Position numbers and translations under genes: made by a program
In this document: positions 11,653 to 31,664 of the stretch, piece after piece
Numbering within the stretch: the first letter of the stretch is position 1
How the letters are laid out: each line of letters starts with the position of its first letter
The notes under the pieces: generated by a model
Seen by the model: only the letters and a program-made list of their open reading frames with translations
Database searches by the model: none
Told to the model about the DNA's origin: nothing
Source of the DNA: Spartobacteria bacterium
Lineage (GTDB): Bacteria > Verrucomicrobiota > Verrucomicrobiia > Chthoniobacterales > UBA6821
DNA: 34,218 nucleotides
Direction: 5' to 3'
Assembly (NCBI GenBank): GCA_947482345.1
Contig: CANKJN010000015.1
Span: 1-34,218, forward strand

Positions 11653-11670
11653 AAAAAAAGAGCCGGGCTT
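11653..11670 (-). terminator. 3' half of a split intrinsic terminator of hdeD
   Basis: The plus strand reads AAAAAAAGAGCCGGGCTT. On the minus strand this is AAGCCCGGCTC followed by seven T. The other arm, GAGCCGGGCTT on the minus strand, lies at 12054-12044, about 35 bases after the hdeD stop. The two 11-base arms match perfectly. The repeat element (11670-12020) lies between them, so the hairpin loop now holds about 370 bases. Confidence 0.7.
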
Positions 11671-12020
11671 AGGGAAGCGCTGATTTAATCACATAGAGGC
11701 CGTTGCGGAAAGCCGTAGCGGATGCGAAGCAACGACCGGGCAAGCTATGGGCCACGGGCAAGGCGGCTTGGCGCGAGCATCCCCGCAGTGGGCTGTAAGC
11801 GCCAAGCCTACACAGCTGGCCCCCGTGCCACGCCACGAAGCCAAAGGCTTTGTGGCCTTTGGCTTGGATCTCCGCAACCCAAAGGGCTGAAGCCATTTGT
11901 CGATTTTTGTGGCGTTGCTCGCTCGGGCGAAACCGCTGCGGGTATAGCCCAGCGCTCGCGCCTTCAAAAATCAGCAAATGACTTCAGCGGCCTTCATGGG
12001 ATTTAATCAGAGCTTCCTTA
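11670..12020. mobile_element. MITE-like non-coding element, copy A (about 350 bp)
   Basis: The left end is TAGGGAAGCGCTGATTTAAT, continuing CACATAGAGGCCGTTGCGG. The inverted right end, read from 12020, is TAAGGAAGCTCTGATTAAAT, continuing CCCATGAAGGCC. There is no open frame that looks like a protein. Inside, CCAAAGGC/GCCTTTGG and GCCACGAAGCC/GGCTTTGTGGC form strong, mutually exclusive hairpins. Blocks 11712-11745 and 11755-11795 recur in copy B (31463-31664) in the opposite order. The right part (from AAAAATCAGCAAATG) is like the right part of copy C (21966-22374). No transposase is present, so if mobile it is non-autonomous. A flanking TA is seen on both sides. Confidence 0.65.
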
Positions 12021-12043
12021 GTGAAGCGCTAAGCGCTTTCCAA

Positions 12044-12054
12044 AAGCCCGGCTC
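12044..12054 (-). terminator. 5' arm of the split hdeD terminator
   Basis: AAGCCCGGCTC on the plus strand. It is the perfect partner of GAGCCGGGCTT at 11660-11670, described there. It lies 35 bases after the hdeD stop. Confidence 0.65.
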
Positions 12055-12086
12055 CTTGGTGGTGAAACTCGAGGGGGAGATCAGGT

Positions 12087-12641
12087 CTACTTCTCGGAGG
12101 AGAGACCGAGCCCCAGCCAACCCACACCGGCAAAGATCAGTTCGATCCCCAGGAAGAGCCCAAGGATGTAGAGACCGGTGGCCGGCCACTGGGAAATGAT
12201 CATGCCACCCAGCACGATGGAGATGGCAGCACTGAAGAGAACCCAACCGGCTCCCCTGTGATGACGGATCCGAAAGGCAAAAACCGCACGGAAAATGCCA
12301 CCAATCAGGATAGCCCATCCAAGAAACAGGGTGAAGGCGATCGCAGCCTGGAAAGGATGGGCGATAAAGACATACCCTGCGACACCGTAGGCTATGGCCA
12401 CGGCGGCATACCAGAGATGGCTCTTCCAACTTCCGATGGTGAAGACCTTCATCAACTGGAAGGCGCATCCGATCATCAGGATGATTCCGATGAAAGTGGC
12501 CACGGCCGCAGTGGTGATGATCTCGTAGGTGAGCGCGAAGAAACCGAGGAGCATCATGGCGATGCCTCCGGCAATGGCCCAACCGCGGGAAACGGCAGGA
12601 ATAGGAAACGTGGGGATGGGGGAGGAGTTATTGGTGTCCAT
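12087..12641 (-). CDS. HdeD-family membrane protein
   Basis: A 184-residue integral membrane protein with six predicted membrane segments: GWAIAGGIAMMLLGFFAL, AVATFIGIILMIGCAF, LWYAAVAIAYGVAGYVF, AIAFTLFLGWAILIGGIF, GWVLFSAAISIVLGGMI and LYILGLFLGIELIFAGVG. This DUF308/HdeD arrangement is that of E. coli HdeD, implicated in acid resistance at high cell density; the biochemical role is not known. It stands alone. Its terminator appears to be split by a repeat element (11670-12020). The start is ATG at 12641 with no Shine-Dalgarno. Confidence 0.88.
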   Translation of the reverse strand: MDTNNSSPIPTFPIPAVSRGWAIAGGIAMMLLGFFALTYEIITTAAVATFIGIILMIGCAFQLMKVFTIGSWKSHLWYAAVAIAYGVAGYVFIAHPFQAAIAFTLFLGWAILIGGIFRAVFAFRIRHHRGAGWVLFSAAISIVLGGMIISQWPATGLYILGLFLGIELIFAGVGWLGLGLSSEK

Positions 12642-12768
12642 ACGACTCTGTCATACCCTCAGCGTGGGCTTGTGACAAGTATCAAAAGCCCAGCAGTGAC
12701 AGCAACCGGAGTTATAAAGTTAAAATGTTGAAGCGTTAAAAAGTGGAAACGTGGGAAACGCTTTCGAA

Positions 12769-12816
12769 CCTTGTAACCTTGTAACCTTGTAACTTTTTAA
12801 CTTTTTAACTTTTTAA
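12769..12816. repeat. Octamer array: three CCTTGTAA then three CTTTTTAA
   Basis: The units are in perfect register, 48 bases in all. The stop codon of the RND permease (12805-12807) and its last residues (KLKS) are encoded by the CTTTTTAA units. Upstream at 12715-12762 the complementary-type sequence (GTTAAAAAGTGGAAACGTGG) occurs, so the two could pair. Confidence 0.85.
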
Positions 12817-15800
12817 CTTTTCACCGCCTCCAGCCTTCCCCTTCTCGAACCATTTGAAGCAGACCGGGACGATGAAGATGGCGATCAGGGTCGAGGCGAG
12901 CATTCCTCCCACGACGGTCGAGCCTAGGATCCTACGGGAAACGGCACCCGATCCGGTGGCGATCGCCAACGGCACACAACCTAGGATGAAGGCGAAGGCG
13001 GTCATGAGGATGGGCCTCAGTCTGAGCTTGGCGGCATCGAGCGCCGCATCCATGACGGGACGTCCCTTCTCCACCTCCTCCTTGGCAAATTCCACGATCA
13101 GGATGGCGTTCTTGGCCGCCAGGCCGATGAGCATGATGAGTCCGATTTGGGCGTAGACGTCGTTGTCCATCTTGCGGACAAAGAGCATCGCCACCGCACC
13201 GAAGACAGCGATCGGCGTGCAGAAGAGCACGCTCATCGGGAGCGACCAACTCTCGTACTGTGCCGCCAGAATCAGGAAGACAAAGAGGAGCGAGAGGGCG
13301 AAGATCGCCGCTGGAGGAATCCCCTCTGCCGCCTGCTTCTCCTCGAAGGACATCCCGAAGTAGTCGAAGCCCATACCGGGGGGCATTGTCGTCTTGAAGG
13401 TCTCCTCGAGCGCCTTCATCACCTGGCCGGTGCTCACGCCGGGGGCGCCGTTGATGTTGATCTGGGCGCAGTCATACATGTTGAAGCGCATCACGAATTC
13501 GGGACCAGTGATCTGCTTTACCTGCAGGAGGCTTGAGAGCGGCACCGGATCGCCGTTCTTGTTGCGCACGTAGAAGAGGGATGCCCCCTTCGGATCGGTG
13601 CGGGCCGCCCCCTCCGCCTGGATGTAGCAGTAGTACTGCAGGTTGAATCTGTTGAAGTAATTCACCGGGATTCCTCCCAGGAAGGCCTGGAGTGTGGAGT
13701 ACGCCTCGTGGAGGTCAACACCGAGCATCAGGCACATGGCCGGATCGATGGTCATCGAGATCTGCGGCACGGAGGGGAGATAGGTCGTCGTGACCGAACC
13801 GACCTCCGGACGCTTCTTGATCGCCTCCATGAACTTGGCCGTATTGGTCGGCAGGAAGTTCGGGTCGGTGCCGAGACGGTCCTCGAGGATGAAGGTCGTG
13901 CCGCCCGATGTTCCGATGCCCGGGATCGCCGGCGGCGGGAAGGCGAAGTTGATCGCTCCGGGAAAGGGGGCGATCTTCTGGTTGATGGTCCGAAGGAGAC
14001 CGAAGGCATCCTCACCCGGCTTGGTACGCTCTTCCCACGGCTTGAGCGTGATGAAGTAGAAGGCGCTGTAGGTGTTCTGGACGCCGGAGAGGAGGTTGAA
14101 GCCGACGATGGTCGTGACATGCTCGACGCCCGGGATCTTACTGACGATGTCGGCAACCTGCTTGGAAACCGCGTCCGTCCTCTGCTGGGAGGAGGCGTTA
14201 GGGAGCTGGGAGAAGGCGTAGAGGTAGCCGTTGTCCTCTTCCGGCACGAAGGAACCCGGGAGCTTTGATCCAAAGAATCCCGAGAGGGCGACCATGCCCG
14301 CGAGCAGGAGACCTGTCACAAAGGTCTTGCGCAGGAGGAAGCGGCAGGTGCCGAGGTATTTGTTCCGCCCTGCGTCGAAGATCCGGTTGAACCCGCGATA
14401 GAAGGCTCCGAGGGGTCCCCCCACCTCCTTGCGCGGACGCAGGAGCATGGCCCCCAGGGCGGGGCTGAGGCTCAAGGCGTTGAAAGTCGAGATGATGACA
14501 GAGATCGAGATCGTCAGGGCGAACTGCTGGTAGAGTCCGCCGGTGATGCCGGGCAGGAAGACCGTCGGGATGAAGACGGCGGAGAGGATGAGTGCCGTGG
14601 CCACGAGCGGGCCGGTCACTTGCTCCATCGCCTTGGCGGCAGCCTCCTTCGGCGGGAGGCCCTCCTCGATGTGGTGCTCGATCGCCTCGACCACGACGAT
14701 GGCGTCGTCGACGACCAGACCGATCGCCAGCACGAGACCGAAGAGGGAGAGCGTGTTCAGCGAGAAACCGAAGAGAGGGAAGAGGGCGAAGGTGCCCACC
14801 AGCGAGACAGGCACGGCGAGGGCGGGGATCAGGGTCGCGCGCCAGTTCTGAAGGAAGACAAAGACCACGATCAGCACGAGGATCATCGCCTCGACGAGCG
14901 TCTTCTTGATGTCGTCCATGCTGGCCGTCACGGCCAGCGTGGTGTCGAGGGCCGTCTTCATCTTGAGTCCGGCCGGGAAGGTCGGGACGTAGGAGTTCAT
15001 CAGCTTGCGGGCCATGTCGGCGACCTGGAGCGCATTGCTGCCGGGGAGCTGGTAGACCGCGACGATCGCGGCGGGGTGACCATTGAAGCGGCCGGCAAGG
15101 TTGTAGGTCTGGGCACCGAGTTCGACGCGGGCGACATCCTTCACCTTCACGACCGATCCGTTCTTGTCAGCGCGGATGACAATGTTGGCGAATTCCTCCT
15201 CGGTGATGAGACGGCCCGGCGCACGGACGGTGAAGGTCATCTGCTGGCCGGGAGGAACCGGCTCCGCCCCGGTCTGTCCGGAGGGATTGACCGTGTTCTG
15301 CTGGTTGACCGCGTCGTAGACCTCCTGGGTCGTGATGTTGAAGTTGGCGAGCTTGGCCGGATCAAGCCAGAGGCGCATCGCGTAGGTCCCCGCTCCGAAG
15401 ACCGTGACGCTCGCGATGCCCGTGAGACGGGTGAGCGGATTGACGATGTTGACGTAGGCGTAGTTGGCCAGGAAGACCGAGTCGTAGCGATCGTCGTCGG
15501 TATAGAGGGCGAAGCAGATCAGGGGAGAGGGAGACGTCTTGATGACGTTGATGCCCTGCTGAACCACCTGCTGGGGAAGCTGGGACTGTGCCTGCGCCTG
15601 ACGGATCTGGGTCAGGATCTGGTCGGTGGTAGGGACCGTGTTATTGGCGAAGATGACGTTGAGCTGCGACTGCCCCGAACTGGAGTTCAGGGAGTACATG
15701 TACTGCATGTTGTCGACGCCGTTGACCTGCTGCTCGATCGGGGTCGCAACCGCCTGCTTCACCGTCACCGCGTCGGCGCCGGGATAGGTGGCGGCCACCT

Positions 15801-15930
15801 GGATCTGGGGCGGGACGATGTTCGGGAACTGGGAGACGGGAAGGCCCAGCAGACAGACCACACCGAGGATCACCGTGATGATCGCGATAACCATGGCCAC
15901 GATGGGCCGGTTGATGAAGAATTTCGCCAT
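12805..15930 (-). CDS. RND multidrug efflux permease, AcrB/MexB (HAE1) type
   Basis: A 1041-residue inner-membrane proton antiporter that would export drugs, detergents or bile-like compounds. The N-terminus [20 protein letters not shown] is the usual first helix. Two periplasmic loops of about 300 residues are present. The proton relay is complete: Asp408-Asp409 in [12 protein letters not shown] (helix 4) and a Lys in [13 protein letters not shown] (helix 10). The porter-domain motif [21 protein letters not shown] is also seen. The C-terminus (GEKLKS) is encoded by an octamer repeat. The gene starts 33 bases after the adaptor gene and is in one operon with it. No outer-membrane factor or TetR/MarR regulator is in the window. 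Confidence 0.97.
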
Positions 15931-15963
15931 GACGGGCTGGTGCTGGGTGCCGGGTAAGGCGGG

Positions 15964-17220
15964 TTACTTCTTGGCCGCGGCTCCGGCGGAGGACTTGGGA
16001 TTGGCAGAGGAGGCCGCCGGGATGGTTTTGGAGGCACCCTGTTCCGGGACAGGTGGGGGGGTGGATGTGGTGGCGGCCGCAGGTAATGGCATCACCGTGC
16101 AACCCTCGGTCACCTTCTGGATGCCCTGGACGACGATCTTTTCACCCTTGGAGACACCGGAGATGATCACGGCCTCCTCACGGGTCATGAAGCTGACGTT
16201 TACATTGCGGATCGACACCTTGTTGTCGGGACCCACTACAGCGAGTTGATGGAGGTTCTGGATCGTGATGACGGAGTCAAGCGGCACCACGAGGGCATCC
16301 TTCTGAACTCCCACAGTCGCCTGCACCCTGGCGAAGAGACCGGGTCGAAGGAGTGTGCCGGGATTCGGGAAATTTCCCTCCACGGTAATCGATCCTGTCT
16401 GGGTGCTGATCTGGTTGTTGACCGCACGGAAGGTTCCCTTCTGCGGGTAGAGGGTCCCGTCGGAGAGCACCATCTGCATGCCGGCCTCCCGATCCTCCTT
16501 CCTCTGCTCGTCAGCAGTGGAGGGGTTCTTGAGGCTTCCGGCGATCAGGCTAAGGTAGTCGTCCTGCCCGACCTGAAACACCACCTTGATCGGATCAATG
16601 GCGACGATCGTGGTGAGCGGTTGGGTCGATGAGGCACTCACATAGGTTCCAACCTCGTAGTTGGCGAGTCCGGCCATGCCGTCGATCGGGGCAACCACCT
16701 TGGTGAAGTCGAGATTGACCTGCGATGACTGGACGGCGGCCTGTTTGGACGCCACCTGGGCGACCATCGCCTGGTAATTCTGCTGCTGGTTCTGGAACTC
16801 CTGGACGCTGATGACCTTGCCGGCAAGCAGGTTCTGGGCACGGACGAAATCCTGCTGGACCTTGGTCTCCTGGGCGATAGCGGTGGCGAGATCGGCCTTC
16901 GCACGGTCGAGATCGGCCTGGAATGGGGCAGGATCGATCTGGAAGAGCGGATCCCCCTGCTTCACTACGCTTCCCTCGGTGTAGTAGCGCTGGATGATAT
17001 TGCCGGCGACATTCGGCTTCACCAGCGAGGTGACGGTGCCCTGAAGGTTTCCGATCCACTCCTTGTGGTTGGGCATGTCCTTCTGGACGACAGTACCGAT
17101 CGTAACCGGAACCGGGGGCTGAACCGCGGCGGGTGCGGGCACCTTCTTGCAACCGGCAATGGGAAGTATCAAGGCCCCCGCAATCAGGGGGAGCAACATT
17201 TGAGGATGGGAAATCTTCAC
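15964..17220 (-). CDS. RND efflux periplasmic adaptor (membrane fusion protein)
   Basis: A lipoprotein of about 418 residues that links the RND permease to an outer-membrane channel. The GTG at 17220 is chosen because it gives a compact signal peptide with a Lys near the start and the lipobox LPIAGC (Cys24). An upstream ATG (17271) and a later one (17199) are also possible. Next come the lipoyl halves (GNLQGTVTSLVKPNVAGNIIQRYYTEGSVVKQGD and VNLDFTKVVAPIDGMAGLA), a coiled-coil hairpin (QADLDRAKADLATAIAQETK to QSSQV), and the beta-barrel and membrane-proximal parts (GTLLRPGLFARVQATV, ALVVPLDSV). The C-terminus is a Pro/Ala/Ser-rich tail. It is directly upstream of its permease. The gene before it on this strand is the APC permease. 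Confidence 0.95.
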   Translation of the reverse strand: MKISHPQMLLPLIAGALILPIAGCKKVPAPAAVQPPVPVTIGTVVQKDMPNHKEWIGNLQGTVTSLVKPNVAGNIIQRYYTEGSVVKQGDPLFQIDPAPFQADLDRAKADLATAIAQETKVQQDFVRAQNLLAGKVISVQEFQNQQQNYQAMVAQVASKQAAVQSSQVNLDFTKVVAPIDGMAGLANYEVGTYVSASSTQPLTTIVAIDPIKVVFQVGQDDYLSLIAGSLKNPSTADEQRKEDREAGMQMVLSDGTLYPQKGTFRAVNNQISTQTGSITVEGNFPNPGTLLRPGLFARVQATVGVQKDALVVPLDSVITIQNLHQLAVVGPDNKVSIRNVNVSFMTREEAVIISGVSKGEKIVVQGIQKVTEGCTVMPLPAAATTSTPPPVPEQGASKTIPAASSANPKSSAGAAAKK

Positions 17221-17353
17221 AACTCTCGTGTCTAACAGACTCAACTGCCTGATGGCTAGAAAAGAGAACATTACTGAAGAACCCGTGATGGCCCCCTCAA
17301 CGCTTCGCTTCCCTGACAGTCTTTATCCTTCAGTCTAAAAACCTCTAAATCCT

Positions 17354-18754
17354 TCATCGTTTATCCTTCCCCCGCCCCATTCCCATCAACATTGCGAGCA
17401 CGGGTAGCAGGCACCATCCCAGCACGATCCAAGGGATGACCCCGAAGGCCCCCTGCTGGACGGGATAGACGCTCACCCAAAGTGTGTAGCCGATCGCCAA
17501 GGCAGCCAGTGCCGGAATCACGATTTTCCAGCGCCCTGTTTTCATCGGATCCCGGAGAAGTGAGATGCCCGCGCTGACCACCACGAGGAAATAAGCTACC
17601 AGCAGCGACAGCACCGAGAGGGTGGATGACCAGAAGAAGGGATCGGAACCCCTGCCCTGAAAAACGAACCTCATCACGGCATTGCCGGCAAACGCCGTTC
17701 CGATCACGCAGAGCGATGCAAGCACCGGGGATGATCCTCCCGCAGAGAGTTGCGCCAGACGACTTGTCGGCACGATCGAGCGCACCATGGCGAAGAGGAC
17801 GCGCGAAGCCCCCATGACCGAGGCAAGGCCGCAACCCAATGCGGAAAAAGTGGCAAGGATATCAAGCAGATCGCCGCACCATGATCCGAAATAGATTCCC
17901 CCCAGATCGCCAAGCAGGGAATGCGATGCCGCGAAGCGGGCCATGCCTGCAGGATCGGTGCCAAAACCGAGAACTTCCGCCGTCGTCACCAAGGTGTAGA
18001 CGACCCCTCCCCCGATCACCGTGCCGATCAACACACGCGGGATGGTGAAGGAAGGGTTCTTCACTTCCTCACCCATCGTGGCCACCTCCTCGAATCCCGC
18101 GAACGAGAGAAATCCGAAGGACAACGCCAAGGCGATTGAAGGGAGGGTGATACCCGCCGAGGGAATGAAGAGGTCTCTGACAGGCGGATCACCCTGCGGC
18201 CCATGGCCGCCGAGCACCCGCCAGATCACGGCCACGGAAAGAGTCAGCATCACCGCCACCGCCACCCCCTCCAGGGTGATAAGTGCAATCGCGGCACGTC
18301 GCGCCGCAGTGATGCTCAGTACGCCGACAAGCACGGCACCCACCAAGGTAAAGTAGAAGACGGAAGGATGGTGAGCCGGGTGAAACTTCGCGGCGAGATC
18401 ACCCCGGAAAAGACCGAACCCCGAGATCCCCACCATGCCGAAACAAAGATAGGCACCCAGCATGGCCCAACCGGCAATGAGCCCGGCCCTCGGCCCCATC
18501 ACGGCGGAGACGAAGCCGAAAGCGGAGCCGGCATTGGGATAGAGCCTCGAAAGCCTCGCAAAGCACCAGGCCACCATGATAACCAGAATCGTGCTTAGGA
18601 GAAAGATCAGGGGTGTTAACCGACCAACATGCTGGGAGGGTTCCTGAGGATTCAGGTTCATTGCCAAAGTCGGCCCCATACCGGCCACGCTCACACCGAT
18701 GGCATCCCGGATCCCTAGCCCACGGATAAAGGATGAAGAATCAGCGGTTTTCAC
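17354..18754 (-). CDS. APC-superfamily amino acid/amine permease
   Basis: A 466-residue inner-membrane transporter with about 12 membrane segments. The N-terminal helix 1 region GIRDAIGVSVAGMGP has the unwound Gly-rich pattern of the family. FGFLSFAGFEEVATMGEEVKNP is the helix 6 signature (FxGFE) with the typical following GEEVKNPxxxIPR. The substrate cannot be read from the sequence; amino acids or amines are usual. It starts 22 bases after mqnA on the same strand, so it may be co-transcribed. A perfect AT-rich palindrome lies at the junction. The start is ATG at 18754. Confidence 0.88.
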   Translation of the reverse strand: MKTADSSSFIRGLGIRDAIGVSVAGMGPTLAMNLNPQEPSQHVGRLTPLIFLLSTILVIMVAWCFARLSRLYPNAGSAFGFVSAVMGPRAGLIAGWAMLGAYLCFGMVGISGFGLFRGDLAAKFHPAHHPSVFYFTLVGAVLVGVLSITAARRAAIALITLEGVAVAVMLTLSVAVIWRVLGGHGPQGDPPVRDLFIPSAGITLPSIALALSFGFLSFAGFEEVATMGEEVKNPSFTIPRVLIGTVIGGGVVYTLVTTAEVLGFGTDPAGMARFAASHSLLGDLGGIYFGSWCGDLLDILATFSALGCGLASVMGASRVLFAMVRSIVPTSRLAQLSAGGSSPVLASLCVIGTAFAGNAVMRFVFQGRGSDPFFWSSTLSVLSLLVAYFLVVVSAGISLLRDPMKTGRWKIVIPALAALAIGYTLWVSVYPVQQGAFGVIPWIVLGWCLLPVLAMLMGMGRGKDKR

Positions 18755-18762
18755 GGAAATAG

Positions 18763-18788
18763 AACTTACTATTGTTCAATAGTAAGTT
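18763..18788. promoter_or_regulatory. Perfect AT-rich palindrome at the mqnA stop
   Basis: Arms AACTTACTATTG and CAATAGTAAGTT are perfect inverses with only two bases between. The mqnA stop lies at its centre. It is too AT-rich and has no T-run, so it is a poor terminator. It could be an operator for the permease gene or a scar. Confidence 0.45.
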
Positions 18789-21965: not shown

Positions 21966-22374
21966 TAGGAAATCGCTGATTGAACCCGAACTCCGAAGTT
22001 GAGCAGAGCGATTTGAAATAATCTGCTGACCGCAAAGAAGCATTGCCTCGCTCGCTTTGCCTCGGCCTCTCCCGAGGCCCACGTCCTTAGGAATGCTTCG
22101 CAGGCTTCATCGTGCATCCCTTCACTCAGTGTTCGCTCGGCTCGCTCTGTCGGGTTTGCCTGCGGCAAATCTACCCAAGCCACTCCCGTAGCTACGTGTT
22201 GCCTAGCACTAGCGCCTTCGACCAAGACTCTGGAAAGAGTCGTGGAGAAGCATGCCTAAGGCATGATCCACCATACCGATGCGGGATGGCACTTCTTCTC
22301 GGGAGAGAAGTGCCGTTAAAAAATCAGCAAATGGTCTTCAGTAGCCATCATGGGATTTTATCAGCGGTTCCCTA
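21966..22374. mobile_element. MITE-like non-coding element, copy C (about 409 bp)
   Basis: The left end is TAGGAAATCGCTGATTGAAC, and the inverse right end is TAGGGAACCGCTGATAAAAT, continuing CCCATGATGG. It has no credible gene. It holds a chain of perfect hairpins: GCCTC-GAGGC, TTTGCC-GGCAAA, GACTC-GAGTC, CATGCC-GGCATG and GCACTTCT-AGAAGTGC. The right end shares AAAAATCAGCAAATG and CATGGGATTT with copy A. Its last TAG is the stop of the dienelactone hydrolase gene. Confidence 0.6.
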
Positions 22375-23164: not shown

Positions 23165-23707
23165 GTGAGCAATCCGATCATCAAGACTGTTATCAGAACC
23201 AAGTTTCTACTTACCTCCAGGGAAAAGGCCTCATGGATGATCCGGAGTAATGCCGACGCCTACCTGAGGTTGGCGGATCGCTTCGGTGCCGGCAAGGGGA
23301 TGGAACAAGCGACGGTTCCTTCGATGATCGGCGTGGATCCGGAAATGCGCGGGTGGTCGTTCTTTCAGATCCTGGAACACAACGTGATCGTGAACCGAAG
23401 CATCGCCGCCATGGTGAAGGCCCTGGCACTCGGAAAGGAGCCCCGGGGCGCCGCGCTAATGAACACCAAGACCGATGTTCTTCCCAAGGGCGTATCTGGG
23501 TCCGAGCAGATCGGTTATTTCCGGCAATCGGTTTATGATTATCTGTCCATGGTCTCGGATTTGCCCTCCTTGCGTGGAACCGCCCAACGCACTCATCCGA
23601 TCTTCGGCCCCTTTGACGCCCACAAGTGGCACTGCATGTTGGGATTCCACCTCGGACTCCACCTCAAGCAGGCAGAGCGTGTCCTGGCCATGGTCACCGG
23701 AGAGTGA
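23165..23707 (+). CDS. DinB/YfiT-like four-helix protein (putative metal-dependent hydrolase fold)
   Basis: A protein of about 180 residues with a four-helix bundle pattern. Likely metal ligands are a His in ILEHNVIVNRS and His residues in DAHKWHCMLGFHLGLHLKQ near the end, as in DinB-superfamily proteins. Function is not known; members include thiol-dependent transferases and hydrolases. The GTG at 23165 is chosen because the longer frame (from 23075) would run into the start of the divergent gene. A purine-rich AGGAAGAG lies upstream. It stands between the hydrolase and recD2, in the same direction as recD2. Confidence 0.65.
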   Translation: MSNPIIKTVIRTKFLLTSREKASWMIRSNADAYLRLADRFGAGKGMEQATVPSMIGVDPEMRGWSFFQILEHNVIVNRSIAAMVKALALGKEPRGAALMNTKTDVLPKGVSGSEQIGYFRQSVYDYLSMVSDLPSLRGTAQRTHPIFGPFDAHKWHCMLGFHLGLHLKQAERVLAMVTGE

Positions 23708-23745
23708 GGCATTGGCGTCAAGGGATTCCCGTGGCATGATCAACC

Positions 23746-25992
23746 ATGCCTCCGCGCCGACCTTTCCGAAAAAAACCGGACAATGAGCCGGTCCCCGGCG
23801 GGCCCGATGACGCCCTCAGCGGGCAGGTGGAGCGTGTCACCTTCCATAACGAGGAGACCGGATTCTGCATTCTCAAGGTGAAGGTGCAGGGCCGGAAGGA
23901 ACCCGTCGCCGTCCTCGGCAGCCTTCCCTCCGTGGCCCCTGGAGAGTGGGTGACCGCCCAGGGGAGCTGGGAGCGTGACAGGGATCACGGAATCCAACTC
24001 AAGGCCCACAGGCTTAAGACCCAGCCGCCGACTTCCCTCGAGGGTATTGAGAAGTATCTCGGAAGCGGGATGATCAAGGGGATCGGCCCCGTCTACGCAA
24101 CGAAGCTTGTGAAGAAATTCGGAGAGAAGGTCTTCGACATCATCGAGAACCAGTCGAAGCGCCTTCAGGAAGTCGAGGGCATCGGTCGCGAGCGCAGGCA
24201 GAGGATCAAGGATGCCTGGGCCGAGCAGAAGGTGGTGCGCGACATCATGCTCTTCCTACATGCTCATGGCCTCGGAACCAACCGCGCCGTGCGTATCTAC
24301 AAGTCCTACGGTGCCGAGGCGATCGAACTCATCCGCGCCGATCCTTACCGTCTCGCCCGTGACATCCACGGCATCGGGTTCCACTCCGCCGACAGCGTGG
24401 CCGAGAAACTTGGACTGGAGGCCGACTCTCTGCTCAGGGCACGCGCCGCCATCGAACATCTCCTGGATCAGGCCACGACGGAGGGGCATTGCGCCCTGCC
24501 TCGCCGCGATCTACTGGAAGGGGCTTCCCGTCTCCTCGAAGTCGATGAATCGGTGGTGGCCGAAGCCTTCGAGCGCCATCTCAAGGATGAGCGGATCCTC
24601 TCCGAGAAGATCGCCGGAGAGGAACTGATCTTTCTTCCCAACCTCCGTGATGCCGAAGAGCGGATTGCCCGCCAACTTCTGAGACTCTCAAAAGCCAAGG
24701 AACCCGATCCTCCCATCGACACGGAGAAGGCGATCCCCTGGGTCGAAGAGAAGACCGGGCGCAAACTCTCCCCCAGCCAGCACGATGCCCTCAGGATAGC
24801 GCTGCGAAGCCGGGCCGTCGTCATCACGGGAGGTCCGGGCGTCGGGAAGACCACCCTGGTCCAGTCCCTCCTGAAAATCCTCACCGCCAAGAAGCTCAAG
24901 TGCCTTCTCGCGGCTCCCACGGGACGTGCGGCCCAACGCCTGGCCGAGGCAACTGGCCTGGAGGCCTCCACGCTGCACCGACTGCTGGAGTTTCAGCCCG
25001 CACGGGGCGGCTTCCAGAGAAATGCCTCCAATCCCCTCGAAGGTGATGTCGTGGTGGTCGACGAGGTCTCGATGGTCGACGTGCCACTCATGAGCCGCCT
25101 TCTCGACGCCCTTCCCGGGAAGGCACGCCTGATCCTCGTGGGCGATGCCGATCAACTCCCCAGCGTGGGGCCGGGGCTGGTCCTTGGCGACATCATCCGG
25201 AGTGGGATGATCCCGGTCGTCCATCTGCGCGAAATCTTCCGACAGGCGGGCGACAGCAGGATCATCAGCGGAGCCCATGCGATCAACCGCGGCGAGATCC
25301 CGGACATCATCGATGCTCCCAAGGATTCCGACTTCCTCTTTGTCGACCGCGAGGATGCTGAGGAGTGCGCCGCCACGCTCGTCTCACTGGTGCGCGACCG
25401 CCTGCCCAAGCATCTGGGAGTCGACCCGGTCGAGGGAATCCAGATCCTCAGCCCCATGCACCGCGGAAGCCTCGGCATCAAGGAACTGAATCTGCGCCTG
25501 CAGTCCGCGCTGAACCCACGCAGCGAATACCGCGACGAGTATCAGGCCTATGGGAACCTCTTCCGCACCGGCGACAAGGTGATCCAGACCTCGAACAACT
25601 ACGACAAGGAAGTCTTCAACGGGGACATCGGTCGGATCCGCTCCATGGACAGGGAGGAGAAACAGCTCGTGGTGCGTTTCGGCAAGCGGGAGGTCATCTA
25701 CGAATTCGGGGAACTAGACGAACTCGAGCTGGCCTACGCCATCACGATCCATAAGAGCCAGGGATCAGAGTTTCCCGTGGTCGTGATTCCACTCGCCATG
25801 CAGCAATATCTCCTGCTGCAGCGAAACCTGCTCTACACGGGAGTCACTCGCGGCAAGCGGATGGTCGTGCTCGTGGGGCAGAAAAAGGCGCTGGGAATGG
25901 CTGTCCGGAATGAATCCACTCGTCACCGGCACGGGGGGCTCCTCCATCGGTTGACCGATGGAGAGTTAAAAGGTGGAAAAGTGGAAAAGTGA
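23746..25992 (+). CDS. recD2: RecD2-family ATP-dependent 5'-3' DNA helicase
   Basis: A 748-residue RecD-like helicase that acts without RecBC in DNA repair and replication. An N-terminal OB-like part (25-95, VERVTFHNEETGFCILKVKV) is followed by helix-hairpin-helix stretches (KYLGSGMIKGIGP, QEVEGIGRERRQRI, YRLARDIHGIGFHSAD). The helicase core has Walker A TGGPGVGKTT (361-370), Walker B VVVVDEVSMVD, LVGDADQLPSVGPG, and the C-terminal YAITIHKSQGSEFPVV and YTGVTRGK. After RHGGLLHRL the expected end would come, but the frame runs on for TDGELKGGKVEK, encoded by a hairpin and an octamer array, and stops inside the array. The start is ATG at 23746. Confidence 0.95.
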   Translation: MPPRRPFRKKPDNEPVPGGPDDALSGQVERVTFHNEETGFCILKVKVQGRKEPVAVLGSLPSVAPGEWVTAQGSWERDRDHGIQLKAHRLKTQPPTSLEGIEKYLGSGMIKGIGPVYATKLVKKFGEKVFDIIENQSKRLQEVEGIGRERRQRIKDAWAEQKVVRDIMLFLHAHGLGTNRAVRIYKSYGAEAIELIRADPYRLARDIHGIGFHSADSVAEKLGLEADSLLRARAAIEHLLDQATTEGHCALPRRDLLEGASRLLEVDESVVAEAFERHLKDERILSEKIAGEELIFLPNLRDAEERIARQLLRLSKAKEPDPPIDTEKAIPWVEEKTGRKLSPSQHDALRIALRSRAVVITGGPGVGKTTLVQSLLKILTAKKLKCLLAAPTGRAAQRLAEATGLEASTLHRLLEFQPARGGFQRNASNPLEGDVVVVDEVSMVDVPLMSRLLDALPGKARLILVGDADQLPSVGPGLVLGDIIRSGMIPVVHLREIFRQAGDSRIISGAHAINRGEIPDIIDAPKDSDFLFVDREDAEECAATLVSLVRDRLPKHLGVDPVEGIQILSPMHRGSLGIKELNLRLQSALNPRSEYRDEYQAYGNLFRTGDKVIQTSNNYDKEVFNGDIGRIRSMDREEKQLVVRFGKREVIYEFGELDELELAYAITIHKSQGSEFPVVVIPLAMQQYLLLQRNLLYTGVTRGKRMVVLVGQKKALGMAVRNESTRHRHGGLLHRLTDGELKGGKVEK
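25942..25963 (+). other. Perfect hairpin within the recD2 3' end
   Basis: CTCCATCGG-TTGA-CCGATGGAG, a nine-pair stem and four-base loop, inside the last codons of recD2. It has no T-run after it on the plus strand, so it is not a good terminator. It may stabilise the 3' end of the mRNA. Confidence 0.45.
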
Positions 25993-25996
25993 AAAG
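25973..25996. repeat. Octamer array GTGGAAAA x2 plus GTGAAAAG
   Basis: GTGGAAAA, GTGGAAAA, GTGAAAAG in register. The recD2 TGA stop (25990-25992) lies inside the third unit. It relates to the sequence at 12715-12762. Confidence 0.75.
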
Positions 25997-26070
25997 GTCA
26001 GAAGGAGGAATCATATTTGGGAACGGCCCGATTCACCCCTTTCACCGTTTCAGCGGTTCCCTGGGCGTCT

Positions 26071-26931
26071 TTAAGCCGCATGGGCGAGGCCGAGGTTCTC
26101 GGGTTGCATTCTCTCCCGCTTGGCAAGCGCCCGGCGCATTTTTCCAAGGGCGATGTTCTGGAGCTGGCGGATTCTCTCCCGGGTGACTCCAAACTTCTCA
26201 CCGACCTCCTCGAGGGTGATCGGATCGGATCCATCAAGACCGAATCGGGAGTTGATAATCTTCCTCTCACGGTCATCGAGTTGCTCGAGCGCATCGCCGA
26301 CTTCCATCTGGATATTCTTGTCGCTCAGGCTCTCGAAGGGATCGACCGCCGCAGTATCACCCACCAGTTCCCCGAACTCAGTGGAGTCCTCCTCGCCGAC
26401 GGGCGCATCCAGCGAGGCTGGGCGAACCGCCGCCTGCTTGAGCTGGCTTACCTTGGAAGCGTTCATTCCGACCTCCTCGGCAATCTCCTCGTCGGTTGCC
26501 TCCCTGCCGAGCTCGTCGCTGAGACCGGCGCCGACACGGCGGATCTTGGCGATCTTGTCGACCAGGTGGACGGGAAGACGGATCGTCTTTCCCTGATTAG
26601 CCAGGGCCCTCTTGATAGACTGCTTGATCCACCAGGCTCCGTAGGTCGAGAGCTTGCCTCCCTTGGCGGGATCGAAACGCTCCACGGCCTTTACCAGGCC
26701 GATATTCCCCTCAGAGATGAGGTCAAGCAGCGGAAGGCCGAGGTTGGCGTAGTCACGGGCGATCTTGACGACCAGCCTGAGGTTGGCGCGGATCATCTCG
26801 GCCTTGGCAGCCTTGTTCCCTTTCTTGATCTTGGTGGCAAGCGCCACCTCCTGCTCCGGGGTCAGCAGCGGGTACTGCGCGATCTGGCGCAGGTAGAGTT
26901 GGAATCCGGCATCTGAATCTTCGTAGCTCAT
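26071..26931 (-). CDS. Sigma-70 family RNA polymerase sigma factor, short RpoD/RpoS-like
   Basis: A 286-residue sigma factor with regions 1.2 to 4.2 but no long N-terminal region 1.1. Region 1.2 is LYLRQIAQYPLLTPEQEVALA. Region 2 has NLRLVVKIARDYANLGLPLLDLISEGNIGL and FDPAKGGKLSTYGAWWIKQSI. Region 3 has IRLPVHLVDKI and ATDEEIAEEVG. Region 4 has DDRERKIINSRFGLDG, the helix-turn-helix TLEEVGEKFGVTRERIRQLQ and a final ALGKMRR. It could be a primary or group 2 sigma; short primary sigmas occur in several phyla. The start is ATG at 26931 with no Shine-Dalgarno. The upstream region contains a palindrome with TTGACA on both strands. Confidence 0.9.
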   Translation of the reverse strand: MSYEDSDAGFQLYLRQIAQYPLLTPEQEVALATKIKKGNKAAKAEMIRANLRLVVKIARDYANLGLPLLDLISEGNIGLVKAVERFDPAKGGKLSTYGAWWIKQSIKRALANQGKTIRLPVHLVDKIAKIRRVGAGLSDELGREATDEEIAEEVGMNASKVSQLKQAAVRPASLDAPVGEEDSTEFGELVGDTAAVDPFESLSDKNIQMEVGDALEQLDDRERKIINSRFGLDGSDPITLEEVGEKFGVTRERIRQLQNIALGKMRRALAKRERMQPENLGLAHAA

Positions 26932-26964
26932 GGTGTGTGGGGTTGGTTGTTTTCCTTTGCTCGT

Positions 26965-26980
26965 TTGACAAGGGTGTCAA
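26965..26980. promoter_or_regulatory. TTGACA-AGGG-TGTCAA palindrome between the sigma gene and yifB
   Basis: A six-base inverted repeat around AGGG. Both strands carry a perfect TTGACA. I find no good -10 at the right distance on either strand, so it may be an operator rather than a promoter core. Confidence 0.35.
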
Positions 26981-27106
26981 CCCGTGCGTTCGAAATAATT
27001 TTCATTCCCCTTTGGGGAGGCCCCTGCGTGGAGAGAGAAAAAAAATCCAAATCCCGATGTTTACAACCGGCCACACTCGTGGAATGTGTGTCGCACCCAT
27101 CCAGAA

Positions 27107-28651
27107 ATGATCACCAGAGTTTTTTCCGCCGCCGTCGTCGGTGTCGACGCCACCGAGATAGAAATCGAAGTCAACACGGGCCCCGGCGAGCCCTCGATCA
27201 TCGTCGTTGGACTTCCCGACACGGCCGTCAAGGAGAGCAAGGACCGGGTCATCGCCGCACTCTCCAACAGCGGCTACCGCTGGCCTCGCAAGCGTACCAC
27301 GGTGAACCTCGCTCCCGCCGACATCAAGAAGCAGGGTCCCAGCTTCGACCTTCCGATCGCGCTCGGAATGATCGCCACGGACACGGAGGAGGAGCTCCCG
27401 AGGCTCTCCCGCTGCGCGGTCGCTGGCGAACTCGCCCTCACCGGGGAGGTGCGTCCCGTCAAGGGGGCCCTTCCCCTCACCCTTGAGGCGCGGGCGCGCG
27501 GCAAGAAGGCGGTCATCCTCCCCGTGGCGAATGTCCGCGAGGCCTCCATCGTCCAGGGAATCGATGTGTACGGGGTCAGGAATCTCCGCGAGGCCTATGA
27601 GTTTCTCTCCAAGAAGTCGGAACTCACCCCCGAGCAGAGCAATGAGGCCGACTTGCTCTCCCAGAGAGATTCCTTCGATGTCGATTTCTCAGAGGTGAAG
27701 GGGCAGCACCAGGTGAAACGTGCCATCGAGGTGGCCGTCGCCGGAGGGCACAATCTCCTTCTTCTTGGCCCTCCCGGATCCGGGAAGTCAATGCTGGCCC
27801 GCCGCATCCCGACCATCATGCCGCCGATGTCTCTCGAGGAGGCAATCGAGACGACTAAGATCCATTCCGTCTGCGGCCTCCTCTCCTCGGGAGAGTCTAT
27901 CGTGCTGCGGCGACCCTTCCGCGATCCGCATCACACTATCTCCGACATCGGGTTGCTGGGGGGCACGGCGAACATCACCCCGGGCGAGGTGAGCCTCGCC
28001 CATCACGGCGTCCTCTTCCTGGATGAGTTGCCCGAGTTCCACCGTTCGACCCTCGAAGTGATGCGTCAACCTTTGGAGGATGGCAAGGTGACGATCTCCA
28101 GGGCCACGGGAACCATGACATTCCCCTCCGCCTTCATGCTTGTGGCCGCGATGAACCCCTGCCCATGCGGTTACTACGGCGACACGAAGCGAAATTGCCG
28201 CTGCTCCGACAAACAGGTCGAGCGCTACCGACAGAAGATCTCGGGCCCTCTCCTCGACCGCATCGACCTCCATGTCGAGGCACCGGCGGTGGAATACAAG
28301 GAACTTTCGGACACTCTCCCGGCAGAGTCCTCGGCCGTCATCAGGGAACGGATCCTAGAGGCACGAGCCATCCAGAACCACCGCTTCACGAAATCACGGA
28401 AGTCGAAAATCACAACCTGCAACGCGCGCATGAGTCATGCCCAGCTCAAGGAACATTGCCGCCTCGACGACCGCGGGAACGAACTCCTCAAGAACGCCAT
28501 GGCCGATCTCAACTTCAGCGCCCGGGCCTACGACCGGATCCTGAAAGTAGCCCGCACCATCGCGGACCTGGCTGGAAGCGAATCCATCGCTCCAGATCAC
28601 CTCCTTGAGGCCCTCAGCTACCGGAATCTCGACAGGAACGTCTGGCAGTAG
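27107..28651 (+). CDS. YifB/ComM family Mg-chelatase-like AAA+ ATPase
   Basis: A protein of about 514 residues. ComM-type ATPases are hexameric helicases that drive branch migration during natural transformation. The N-terminal Lon-like domain has the typical [22 protein letters not shown] and [13 protein letters not shown]. Walker [14 protein letters not shown] follows at about 221-233, then [16 protein letters not shown], Walker [30 protein letters not shown] and a Cys cluster [17 protein letters not shown] that is probably a zinc site. The end is the Mg-chelatase C-terminal part (LSYRN). The ATG at 27107 is chosen because [12 protein letters not shown] is the usual start; the frame is open for seven codons upstream. 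It ends seven bases from the convergent methyltransferase gene. Confidence 0.93.
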
Positions 28652-28658
28652 CAGTGCG

Positions 28659-29519
28659 CTACGAAAACTGCGGATGGGTGATGAGGCGGGCGTAGTCCTC
28701 CGGGGAGATCGGTCCCCGCTCGTAGTTACGGCCACGCAAGGGTGAGGAATTCGTCGAGGAGCGGACCCGACTCAACCACGCCCCATCGAGCGGCTTCTCC
28801 AGCAAACCGGGCCTGTTGGCGGCAATCGTTGTCTCCTCCTTCTCTCCGGTCGGGACGCCGGTTCCAACGAACCAACCGGCCAGCAACATCGTCACCCTCA
28901 CCGATGTCGATCGGGTGTAATTGGTCATCGTGCAGTGCGGGGCATCGGGATCGGCAACCGCATCCCTGATCATGCGAAAGGTCTCCAGGCTCCACATCTC
29001 GGCATTCCTCGCCGGGGAATAGGGATCAAAGAAGATAGCCGAAGGCGACGGGGCCTCGGGCCGCGATCGAGAGAAGTCCCCACGATGAAGATGCCAAGTC
29101 ATTCCCGGTGCAGGGCGAGCAACTCCGGATACAAGCAACTCCCCGACCGTGGCTTCCCATCCTGCGAGATACTTCAGGGCCGCGGCATGTAGAAGGGAGA
29201 ATTCCAGCACCGAGGTGTCGATCTCGTAGCTGTGGATCTCCACCGACTTAGCTACCATACCCACCCCGTTGAGTTCTTTAATCGCCGTGATCGCCGTAAT
29301 GGCATTCGCTGCAGGCCCGAGCCCGATGTCCCAAACAACGAAGGGAGGCGACTCAGAGCACGCCGCAACACGCTCGGCAAGACGCTGCTGGCCGACATGG
29401 AGTTCCATGGCCTCCGTGCAGGGATCCGTTCCGATATGCATCGTCTCCCCGTGTGCCGTCGAGCGGATGCTGTGCGCCCCTCCCCTCAGGGTCACAAGTT
29501 CATAGGAGGGAGCACTCAT
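28659..29519 (-). CDS. MnmD-like tRNA 5-(aminomethyl)-2-thiouridine methyltransferase (DUF752)
   Basis: A SAM-dependent methyltransferase of about 286 residues, like the N-terminal half of E. coli MnmC but without the FAD oxidase half. Family marks: STAHGETMHIGTDPCTEAME, the SAM site VWDIGLGPAANAI, IHSYEID, AIFFDPYSPARNAEMWS and TNYTRSTSVRVTMLLAGWFV. It probably methylates the wobble uridine side chain of some tRNAs; this is inferred from the family. The ATG at 29519 is chosen (MSAPSYELV). An upstream ATG at 29528 is in frame. It converges with yifB. Confidence 0.78.
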   Translation of the reverse strand: MSAPSYELVTLRGGAHSIRSTAHGETMHIGTDPCTEAMELHVGQQRLAERVAACSESPPFVVWDIGLGPAANAITAITAIKELNGVGMVAKSVEIHSYEIDTSVLEFSLLHAAALKYLAGWEATVGELLVSGVARPAPGMTWHLHRGDFSRSRPEAPSPSAIFFDPYSPARNAEMWSLETFRMIRDAVADPDAPHCTMTNYTRSTSVRVTMLLAGWFVGTGVPTGEKEETTIAANRPGLLEKPLDGAWLSRVRSSTNSSPLRGRNYERGPISPEDYARLITHPQFS

Positions 29520-29639
29520 CCGGCACATACCATGCAGGAATCCATGCCGAATTCACGGAAAACATCTCCGCCTGCTTGGAGGAAAACCGCTTTTCCTCGC
29601 TCACTCTTGTGTGATGCATGTGTTACACAATATTTTATT

Positions 29640-29739
29640 GCATCCCGTATCACTCTTTTCTACGGTCTTAAACATCTCCTCGGAGACATAGCGCAGCCTT
29701 GAGCTACCGGGGGGTATTCTCAAGGCTGCGTTATTTTTT
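29640..29739 (+). ncRNA. Candidate small RNA with its own terminator
   Basis: A strong intrinsic terminator (29692-29739) has no plus-strand gene before it for over 1 kb. yifB ends at 28651, and the gene in between is on the other strand. About 60-100 bases upstream are a weak promoter (TTGTGT at 29607, TATTTT at 29631) and a small hairpin TCTCC/GGAGA (29675-29686). A transcript of about 95-100 nt is plausible. No known RNA family is recognised. Confidence 0.4.
29692..29739 (+). terminator. Strong orphan intrinsic terminator
   Basis: CGCAGCCTTGAG (29692-29703) and CTCAAGGCTGCG (29719-29730) form a perfect 12-pair stem with a 15-base loop. TTATTTTTT follows. The plus-strand orientation does not suit the minus-strand genes on either side, so the reading is either a small RNA or a shield against readthrough. 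Confidence 0.8.
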
Positions 29740-29759
29740 CCCTGAAAGAACGTGCAGGA

Positions 29760-30197
29760 TCAGTAACGGAGAGGATCCGGTAGCGTGAAGGCACTCTCGA
29801 TCACCCTGATCTCAACGGGATCAGTCGCCAACACCTCGACCACATCAAAGCGAAAGGTAATGTCAGGCATCTCGAGGAGTCGGAGCCAGTAAAGTGCTCC
29901 GCGGCGGATAAGCTGCTGCTTCTTCCGATCCACGGCAGCAAGGGGGCGTCCCAGTTCTTCGGATCGACGGGTCTTCACCTCGGCAAAGACAAGCGTGTCA
30001 TGGTCACGGCAGACGAGATCGACTTCCCCTCCCCCCGGTGCGCGGAAGTTTCGGCGGAGAATCTTCCAACCAATCCGTTTGAGATGGCGTGAAGCCTCCT
30101 CCTCCCCCCACTTGCCCAGGGCGATGTGACTTTCAGAACCCGAAGGTGGGCTGGTCGACCGGCGCAAAACCGAGTCGATGATGCGGGCAAGGTCCAT
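29760..30197 (-). CDS. YraN family (UPF0102) endonuclease-fold protein
   Basis: A protein of about 145 residues of the restriction-endonuclease-like fold. Visible parts are LGKWGEEEASRHLKRIGWKI, RNFRAPGGGEVDLVC and LVFAEVKTRR, which give the E...D...EVK metal-binding pattern. Function is not proven; roles in recombination and DNA uptake have been proposed. The ATG at 30197 is chosen because it gives the usual length. The frame is open up to 30284. It overlaps the end of rnhB by 65 bases, so translation is probably coupled. The three genes rplS, rnhB and yraN form a cluster. Confidence 0.8.
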   Translation of the reverse strand: MDLARIIDSVLRRSTSPPSGSESHIALGKWGEEEASRHLKRIGWKILRRNFRAPGGGEVDLVCRDHDTLVFAEVKTRRSEELGRPLAAVDRKKQQLIRRGALYWLRLLEMPDITFRFDVVEVLATDPVEIRVIESAFTLPDPLRY

Positions 30198-30813
30198 GCT
30201 CTCGAAGCATAGCGAGATGGTCCGCCGTGGCATAGCCCCGATGACGGGCGAATCCGTATTGAGGAAACTCCCGGTCGAGCTCATCCATGATCTTGTCCCG
30301 GGTGACCTTGGCCAGAATGCTTGCCGCAGCGATGCTCAGACTCAACCCATCCCCCCCAACCAAGGCAGTCTGTTCCACAGGCAATCCCTTCACGGGCAAT
30401 CCATCCACCAAGGCGTGGGCGGGAGGATGCCCATTTTCCTTCAAGCCATCCAACGAGCGTTTCATGGCAAGATGAGTAGCTCTCAGGATATTGAGTTGTC
30501 CGATTTCTTCTGAAGTTCCCTCGGCTATTGCAAAAAACACAGATGCATTTTCTGTTAACCGGACATACAAAGCTTCCCTCTGTTCGTGCGTAAGCTTCTT
30601 GGAGTCATCAAGGCCCTCCAACTCAAAGTCATCGGGCAAGATGACAGCTGCGGCCACCACAGGACCAGCCAAGGGACCCCTCCCGGCCTCATCGATACCC
30701 GCAACGGGATGGATCCCCCGAGCATGAAGCTCCTTCTCGTGGAAAAGCGAAGGGCCCCCGGATTTAGTCCGGAGGCCCTTTTTGGAAATCTTCCCGAGAC
30801 GCTTGTCCGTCAT
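30133..30813 (-). CDS. rnhB: Ribonuclease HII
   Basis: A 226-residue enzyme that cuts RNA in RNA-DNA hybrids and removes single ribonucleotides. The active-site acidic residues are D41 and E42 (GIDEAGRGPLAG), D137 (VDGLP) and D155 (GGD). IAAASILAKVTRD is the conserved block after them. The N-terminal 25 residues (MTDKRLGKISKKGLRTKSGGP) are unusually long and basic and are encoded by a terminator-like hairpin. No other start is available before FHEKELHARG, so ATG at 30813 is used. It lies 32 bases after rplS. Linkage with rplS and YraN is common in other bacteria. Confidence 0.94.
   Translation of the reverse strand: MTDKRLGKISKKGLRTKSGGPSLFHEKELHARGIHPVAGIDEAGRGPLAGPVVAAAVILPDDFELEGLDDSKKLTHEQREALYVRLTENASVFFAIAEGTSEEIGQLNILRATHLAMKRSLDGLKENGHPPAHALVDGLPVKGLPVEQTALVGGDGLSLSIAAASILAKVTRDKIMDELDREFPQYGFARHRGYATADHLAMLREHGPCPHHRLGFAPVDQPTFGF
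30752..30783. terminator. Terminator-like hairpin inside the rnhB 5' coding region
   Basis: GGGCCCCCGGA / TCCGGAGGCCC, 10 of 11 pairs, loop TTTAG, then TTTTT on the plus strand (30779-30783). On the minus strand the same hairpin is followed by TTCGCTTTTC, a weaker T-run. It lies 63-95 bases after the rplS stop. It may act as an rplS attenuator or terminator, or stop plus-strand transcription. Confidence 0.55.
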
Positions 30814-30845
30814 CGGGTGGGTTGTAAAAACTTCCCTAAATCGGA

Positions 30846-31202
30846 TTAGGCTAGTTCCTGCGCCTTCTCCTTCACGGTGACGGCGGCCTTGCCCTTGCGG
30901 TTGCGGAGGTAGTTCAGCTTGGAACGGCGGACTGATCCACGCTTCTCGACCTCAAGCTTGGCGATACGTGGTGAATGAAGGGGGAACACACGCTCGGCAC
31001 CCTCGCCGAAGCTGACGCGGCGGACGGTGAAGTTGGCATTGATACCGGTGCCCTTGCGGCCGATGACGATGCCTGCGTACTTCTGGATACGCTCCTTGTC
31101 ACCTTCGATGACGCGTGTGTGAACGCAGATGGAATCACCCACCTCGAACTGGACGAGGTCGGTCTTGAACTGCTCTTTTTCGATGGTGGCGATGATGCTC
31201 AT
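30846..31202 (-). CDS. rplS: 50S ribosomal protein L19
   Basis: A 118-residue ribosomal protein at the subunit interface. Conserved parts: VGDSICVHTRVIEGDKERIQKYAGIVIGRKG, the middle FTVRRVSFGEGAERVFPLHSPRIAKLEV and the basic C-terminus RRSKLNYLRNRKGKAAV. Length is normal. The start is ATG at 31202 with no Shine-Dalgarno. The next gene, rnhB, is probably transcribed with it. The usual partner trmD is not upstream here. Confidence 0.97.
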   Translation of the reverse strand: MSIIATIEKEQFKTDLVQFEVGDSICVHTRVIEGDKERIQKYAGIVIGRKGTGINANFTVRRVSFGEGAERVFPLHSPRIAKLEVEKRGSVRRSKLNYLRNRKGKAAVTVKEKAQELA

Positions 31203-31462
31203 GTCAATAATTGTTGCCGGAAATTTGTCTCAAGTGGTCGGGTAGAATGCCCATTCCCAAGGCTCTTGGCAAGAAGTAATCCAAGATTTTGCAATGGAAG
31301 CAGGCCAACAGATCCGTAGCGTTCACCAAGATGGCGCGAGGCGATCGGGTTAAAAAGTTGAACCATTAAAAGGTTAAAAAAGGGCATTTCAAGCATGCCA
31401 TAAAATAGCCTCCATGTGGCAGATCATCAGGGAACAATGTTTCGTGATTCACACAATCCCCT
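31203..31462. other. Intergenic region upstream of rplS
   Basis: No gene. It contains the GTTAAAA-type array (31348-31383). No clear promoter for rplS is seen. A 65-residue open frame from 31396 reaches the rplS start but is spurious. Confidence 0.4.
31348..31383. repeat. GTTAAAA-type simple repeat
   Basis: GGTTAAAAAGTTGAACCATT, then AAAAGGTTAAAAAAGG. A degenerate form of the octamer seen at 12769-12816, on the opposite strand. Confidence 0.5.
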
Positions 31463-31664
31463 TAGGGAAGCGCTGATTAAATCCCATAGAGGCTGTTGCG
31501 GAGATAACCGACCGGGGGCTGTGTTGGCTTGGCGCTTTGCTTGCCCGGCCGTTGCTTCGCATCCGTTACGGCAGCCCACTGCGGGGATGCTCGCGCCAAG
31601 CCGCCTTGCCCGCGGCCAGTTCCTCCCGCAACAGCCTCTATGCGATTTAATAAGCGCTTCCTTG
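31463..31664. mobile_element. MITE-like non-coding element, copy B (202 bp)
   Basis: The left end starts TAGGGAAGCGCTGATTAAAT and continues CCCATAGAGGCTGTTGCGG. The inverse right end is CAAGGAAGCGCTTATTAAAT and continues CGCATAGAGGCTGTTGCGG. By eye about 35 of 39 bases match. The interior shares a 41-base identical block (31572-31612) and a 34-base block (31539-31572, two differences) with copy A, in the reverse order. No transposase is encoded. Confidence 0.75.

Follow-up and report, generated by a model that had tools for sequence, protein, structure and literature searches.

The 34,218-nucleotide stretch of a Spartobacteria genome analysed here (the window, part of contig C15) raises the question of how two short repeats, copies A and B, can carry the same two sequence blocks in apparently opposite order. 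With a probability of roughly 0.7, A and B belong to an IS5-type family of miniature transposons (MITEs) that harbours smaller, independently dispersed and mutually nesting elements, here called B33, D and E, and their block order differs because B33 occupies one fixed site in A (site 1) and another in B (site 2). The host genome (G000) comprises 2.36 Mb in 125 contigs, the assembly being 93% complete. The genome panel covered the genus with 16 genomes, the sister genus with 6 and the rest of the order with 36. Where elements begin and end, how much carriers gain and where loops lie were assessed by eye, as was the order of modules in the MITE copies. The parts of A and B relevant to the argument are the following.

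11673–12017, plus strand: MITE copy A, terminal inverted repeats (TIRs) GGAAGCGCTGATTTAATC ... GATTTAATCAGAGCTTCC; carries B33 at site 1 and module m3, with site 2 unoccupied
11669–11672, no strand: target duplication TTAG, left of copy A (from the sequence and the family statistics)
12018–12021, no strand: target duplication TTAG, right of copy A (same basis)
11713–11745, plus strand: B33 (33 nt) at MITE site 1, variant CCGTAGCGG..GACC
11767–11808, plus strand: MITE core hairpin CTTGGCGC..GCGCCAAG
11817–11867, plus strand: optional module m3, 51 nt; other copies have a shorter CCCCGGCC segment instead
11910–11965, plus strand: right-half core of the MITE (cR); longer copies hold E (m4) and module F (m5) beside or within it
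31466–31661, minus strand: MITE copy B, orientation opposite to A; has B33 at site 2 and lacks the right half
31539–31571, minus strand: B33 at MITE site 2, variant CCGTAACGG..GGCC
31462–31465, no strand: TTAG to the left of copy B, imperfectly matched by TTGG on its right (31662–31665)

Comparison of the two copies located the shared blocks where the earlier note on this DNA had placed them, albeit as reverse complements: 11712–11754 matches 31530–31572 over 43 nt (88%) and 11750–11795 matches 31572–31617 over 46 nt (98%), while the left ends of A and B match directly (42 nt, 93%). Both copies run on into AGCGCCAAGCC after the blocks, as had been noted. In A the 33-nt block lies upstream of the hairpin block (11767–11808); in B, read on the minus strand, it follows the first half of the same hairpin. 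The differing order is thus literally present. Still, it is not a permutation, because homologous 33-nt elements sit at two separate sites, of which A has one occupied and B the other. A single module order was found in every copy read. Scoring of both sites in 53 MITE copies gave 33 with none occupied, 12 with the second only (as in B), 4 with the first only (as in A) and 4 with both; in five further copies the first site is filled and the second was not scored. Many copies exist and all four site combinations occur. The proposed modular variation, as opposed to simple decay, is supported, whereas the notion of shuffled or permuted modules is not.

The occupants of the two sites are distinguishable. 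They differ at two diagnostic bases, which are the two differences counted in the earlier note, and one variant is tied to each site (CCGTAGCGG..GACC to site 1, CCGTAACGG..GGCC to site 2). The exceptions are the fused copies L052 and L059, in which sequence left of site 1 is joined to sequence right of site 2 via a single B33, the outcome expected from recombination between the two sites. The site-specific variants suggest two old insertions that were later reassorted among copies. The core hairpin varies as well, reading CTTCGCGG..CCGCGAAG or CTTGGCAC..GTGCCAAG elsewhere in the family in place of the version in A.

A and B are members of a MITE family with GGAAGCGCTGATTAAATC ends and a YTAR target duplication. 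At up to three mismatches, the end GGGAAGCGCTGATTNAATC has 96 + 88 = 184 matches genome-wide against 1 + 1 for the reversed control, and B33 has 64 copies (34 + 30) against none for its control; the likeness of the blocks in A and B is consequently not due to chance. The listed MITE copies were fetched and their ends then paired; all figures derived from fetched copies (lengths, flanks and site scores), as well as the similarity results for the MITE, apply among the matches listed. Leaving out one-ended copies and repeats of identical sequence, 49 distinct two-ended copies remained, of which 21 have identical 4-nt flanks (mean 7.3 and maximum 15 in 1000 shuffles), and the YTAR pattern fits 35/49 left flanks and 35/49 right flanks. 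YTAR is the target type of IS5. Copy lengths include 276, 309 and 351 bp, 276 bp being the commonest. The steps of 33 and 75 recur in the longer copies, where 33, 39, 75, 81 or about 98 bases are added, always at fixed places. L074, the longest copy, contains five modules, arranged in the usual order; sequence resembling it is present in 16/16 genomes of the genus, in 4/6 of the sister genus and weakly in 4/36 others.

These data support the earlier description of non-autonomous elements with TIRs and conserved hairpins. No reading frame of at least 150 amino acids lies inside A, B or C (shorter frames were not listed). The transposase gene flanked by the same TIR that had been thought worth looking for was not found, as none of the four PF01609 loci carries MITE ends at up to three mismatches; other transposase families were not searched. 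A plasmid or phage origin was considered and rejected, the longest copy being unmatched in plasmid and phage collections, as was Rfam membership, since nothing at the elements scored above the gathering threshold. Below threshold, the Rfam scan gave mir-2796 (21.6 bits vs. 72), which overlaps the MITE copy in L069, and three more weak matches; two tRNAs in L180 lie away from the elements. Contig ends fall inside MITE copies on several contigs. Forms of 29–56 bp, scarcely more than both ends, were seen at L017, L018, L028, L041 and L048. A lone MITE end at L020 runs into a stretch that was taken by eye for a transposase remnant. L073 and L078 contain a second, different repeat with a MITE-like end, in which B33 is present at L078 and the site is empty at L073.

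B33 is not restricted to the MITE. The search that returned 64 copies in G000 returned 21 in genome G004, and a slightly wider pattern found it in 15/16 genomes of the genus, 0/6 of the sister genus and 1/36 others (a single match with three mismatches). All 18 stretches in genome contigs that match the exact pattern belong to metagenome-assembled genomes of Spartobacteria or Chthoniobacterales; exact copies were also observed on five viral contigs (L222–L226). The solitary set comprises 85 contexts from 75 loci, including the flanks of the five viral copies; three of these contexts (L128, L182 and L184) abut MITE site-2 sequence. Across these contexts conservation sets in sharply at CCG and stops at GC(A/C)A, and the same boundaries recur in many unrelated surroundings. 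The carriers are differing short tandem repeats (CGCAG, ACTCAG, GGGAT, ACCTG, CACG, GGCTG and others), and carriers devoid of B33 are present in a 434-kb sample of stretches picked irrespective of B33. Comparison of carriers shows a net gain of 33 nt with B33 and no target duplication. At the locus orthologous to that on C64 both neighbouring genes are conserved, and B33 is absent (up to six mismatches) from 11/11 congener loci read; the intergenic carriers there differ or are missing. B33 shows weak structure, with correlated changes that for the most part seem to reflect subfamilies. Many short purine-rich tandem repeats (CGCAGAGG, GGGATGAA, GGCTGAAG and CCTGAAA) were additionally noticed at L230, L235, L244, L245 and L246; such repeats vary among congeners at the single orthologous site compared.

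The other inner elements can be introduced with the third copy of the window, C. Its right end is that of A, as previously described, and its left end is recognisable only in degenerate form (62%).

21968–22372, plus strand: C, a diverged relative whose left part differs; holds E, a remnant of F, and D
22057–22133, plus strand: element E (about 75 nt, four hairpins), beside or within F
22139–22199, plus strand: remnant of module F (m5 family, positions 21–81)
22221–22319, plus strand: element D (m6 family, four hairpins)
4542–4571, minus strand: solitary end fragment with the MITE TIR, no partner

Both D and E are dispersed, and both show strong compensatory base changes. D (module m6, about 85 nt) also occurs alone, in tandem with itself, and inverted (m7) inside E, which is module m4 (75 nt). 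Their structures were written by hand from the alignments. For D, a four-hairpin structure of 27 pairs is kept in 92.4% of cells in 26 aligned sequences, with 114 doubly changed paired cells compared to 29.4 ± 4.5 in shuffled and 10–28 in slid controls; an unconstrained consensus fold recovered the hairpin at each end and missed the two between them. For E, 23 pairs are 93.2% paired in 18 sequences, with 64 doubly changed cells vs. 18.4 ± 3.2 (shuffled) and 4–9 (slid). The covariance model of D yields at least 74 matches in G000 and detects the element in 15/16 genomes of the genus, 0/6 of the sister genus and weakly in 2/36 others. B33 and D are, accordingly, nearly confined to one genus. F (about 81 nt) is the least studied of the four inner elements.

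The elements nest in one another, often in hairpin loops. In contexts drawn from fetched loci rather than full scans, E was seen in the loop of B33 (L103, L104 and L182), in a hairpin of D (L246), in F (L095 and window copy C) and in CGCAG-type carriers (L191 and L220), while B33 lies inside D at L141, L157 and L244. Where E is inserted in B33, the net gain by eye is 75.

The junctions follow a common pattern: for the most part, the three elements end in C at a (G/C)^AA junction. At 50 left junctions of D outside MITE sites, again from fetched loci (56 minus four m7 copies, window copy C and L172, which are MITE or doubtful contexts), position –2 is A in 49, position –1 is A in 46 and position –3 is G/C in 46, and TGAA is the commonest junction (23/50). 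The 26 aligned D sequences end in TCAA (18), TCA (4), GTTC (3) and TTAA (1). On its other strand, E shows N(G/C)AA at 15/15 junctions off the standard MITE site and an element end of GGCAA; in this set L098, L100 and L194 look MITE-like, and window copy C and one junction of L095 lie in F. In the 85 contexts of B33 the preceding base is mostly G (63), otherwise T (14), A (4) or C (4); the base after the element is A or C in 81/85 and the second base after it A in 84/85. Flanks are purine-rich on the element strand for B33 (76/85) and D (23/23), and on the other strand for E (14/15).

The mechanism that we propose has two layers. The MITE would move as a unit via its inverted ends and a YTAR site, an IS5-type route suggested by the ends and the target duplication. 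B33, D and E would leave no visible target duplication on insertion; their targets would mostly be (G/C)AA flanked by purine-rich sequence and would include short tandem repeats as well as one another's hairpin loops, giving rise to the nesting. The lack of a visible target duplication, the apparently fixed 3′ end, the strand preference and the entry into loops point to insertion into single-stranded nucleic acid, possibly DNA (or RNA) exposed in loops, on which an enzyme obeying rules like those of IS200/IS605 would act. Recombination among MITE copies would then account for the combinations of filled sites. A bolder version of this scheme, which we regard as tentative and give somewhat less than even odds, is that one Spartobacteria genus harbours a system, peculiar to it, of minimal mobile sequences of 33 to about 85 nt with a shared junction rule (mostly (G/C)^AA, flanked by purine-rich sequence) and an end in C, growing in a nested, tree-like manner in loops without breaking the host fold, and moved by single-strand-specific or RNA-based machinery.

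Several observations weigh against the proposed combination of a MITE family with independently dispersed inner elements. More than half of the two-ended MITE copies (28/49) are without an exact 4-nt duplication, and no autonomous element with MITE ends was found among the PF01609 loci at the mismatch level given above. By itself, B33 has no better fold than shuffled sequence, and the compensatory changes in D and E could result from hairpin-templated repair rather than from selection on RNA. The junction AA is ambiguous in that it may belong to the target or to the element, and the junction of B33 is looser because T or A precedes it in 18 of the contexts. Moreover, the contexts are not fully independent, since the carriers are repeats themselves, and binomial probabilities overstate independence for that reason. 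Finally, the Y1 transposase (PF01797), a candidate for single-strand insertion, was found in only 2/16 genomes of the genus; of the 14 in which it was not found, 13 carry B33 and 13 carry D. The two Y1 genes of G000 are not directly flanked by B33 either: the nearest B33 variant is about 1.1 kb away, on the upstream side of the Y1 gene on C70, with another reading frame in between. The Y1 gene on C33 (L176:1000–3333) has, by eye, GGGGTCAGTGT-type inverted sequence on both sides; it is preceded by the 5′ part of a D (the first half of a hairpin) in a heptad carrier.

Three other explanations were weighed on the same evidence. The modules could have been lost from a full-length ancestor by hairpin slippage, the solitary ones being old MITE debris. 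The five ordered modules of L074 are in line with this, as is the fusion of both sites through one B33 in L052 and L059, which recombination predicts; with one diagnostic variant per site, MITEs may differ in their B33 content without insertion having recurred. Conversely, solitary B33 and D stand in unrelated tandem repeats without other MITE sequence (3/85 B33 contexts do abut it), E is found in B33, D and F, and D is inverted in E, and carriers exist that lack the element. We consider deletion from a full-length ancestor unlikely. Spread via RNA, with structured B33, D and E transcripts inserted and copied into DNA, deserves somewhat more credence, although we doubt it. Elhai and colleagues are said to have proposed RNA-mediated spread for cyanobacterial small dispersed repeats, and the compensatory changes in D and E, the strand-specific flanks and the independence from a Y1 gene would suit such a route, whereas the weak structure of B33 does not.

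Least probable of all, in our estimate, are REP/REPIN-type palindromes moved by REP-associated tyrosine transposases (RAYTs). Short repeats without target duplication fit this explanation loosely, and the two Y1 genes of G000 match the corresponding transposase model, albeit below its cut-off (56.4 and 63 bits vs. 80). GTAG repeats, for their part, are reported from another verrucomicrobium, O. terrae. However, no B33, D or E end read bears a GTAG or CGTC tag, the Y1 genes appear by eye to be bounded by their own inverted sequences and not by B33, and Y1 was not found in 14/16 genomes of the genus.

Among known systems, the small dispersed repeats (SDRs) of cyanobacteria appear to be the closest kind. 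As reportedly described by Elhai et al. in 2008, SDRs are 21–27 nt long, occur in tandem heptamers and minitransposons, are nested, have a precise insertion point, are restricted to one clade and show compensatory changes. By these features, the Spartobacteria elements resemble them in being very small, embedded in short tandem repeats and minitransposons, and nested, and likewise in the precise insertion point, the restriction to one clade and the compensatory changes (D and E; weak in B33). They differ in belonging to another phylum, in length (33, 75 and about 85 nt vs. the reported 21–27) and in the (G/C)^AA junction with purine-rich flanks common to the Spartobacteria elements, features rather than sequences having been compared. 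IS5-family MITEs, for their part, have TIRs, a 4-bp YTAR duplication and many copies, all of which the Spartobacteria MITE shares; unlike them, it has optional modules at fixed sites, several of these independently dispersed, and no autonomous partner was found among the loci searched. Non-autonomous elements of the IS200/IS605 type produce no target duplication, prefer certain bases on the 5′ side, have a fixed 3′ end and hairpins near their ends, and are strand-specific. B33, D and E would fit this description, but their junction AA is ambiguous, their target motif is short and loose, and Y1 was found in only 2/16 genomes of the genus.

Among the SDRs, SDR5 is treated in PMC4390886. Pneumococcal BOX is described in PMC3049150 as a composite of stem-loop modules, of which the inner one may be absent or repeated with the rest undisturbed. 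The Spartobacteria repeats are similarly composite, modular and rich in stem-loops; boxB, however, appears to be described there within BOX arrays, whereas modules of the present family are also found solitary, within other repeats and nested in each other. REP/REPIN sequences with RAYT, and TIR-associated Y1 genes, are covered in PMC3116915 and PMC3733652. Small repeats, and Y1 genes apparently bounded by inverted ends, are found in this genome too; it differs in the missing GTAG/CGTC tag, in having no repeat-flanked transposase and in that most genomes of the genus gave no Y1 match. Our search for literature on repetitive elements of Spartobacteria genomes, narrow in scope and not the basis of any wider claim of absence, found none.

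In summary, if B33, D and E are mobile, they would be among the smallest mobile elements known, and Spartobacteria would provide a second phylum with the pattern reported for cyanobacterial SDRs, i.e. structured elements nested in one another and placed in tandem repeats and minitransposons. As three sequences without evident similarity have a junction rule in common, the mechanism becomes testable. The nesting in loops suggests how large structured repeats could be built up stepwise while the fold is retained, and it may also explain why assemblies break at such repeats.

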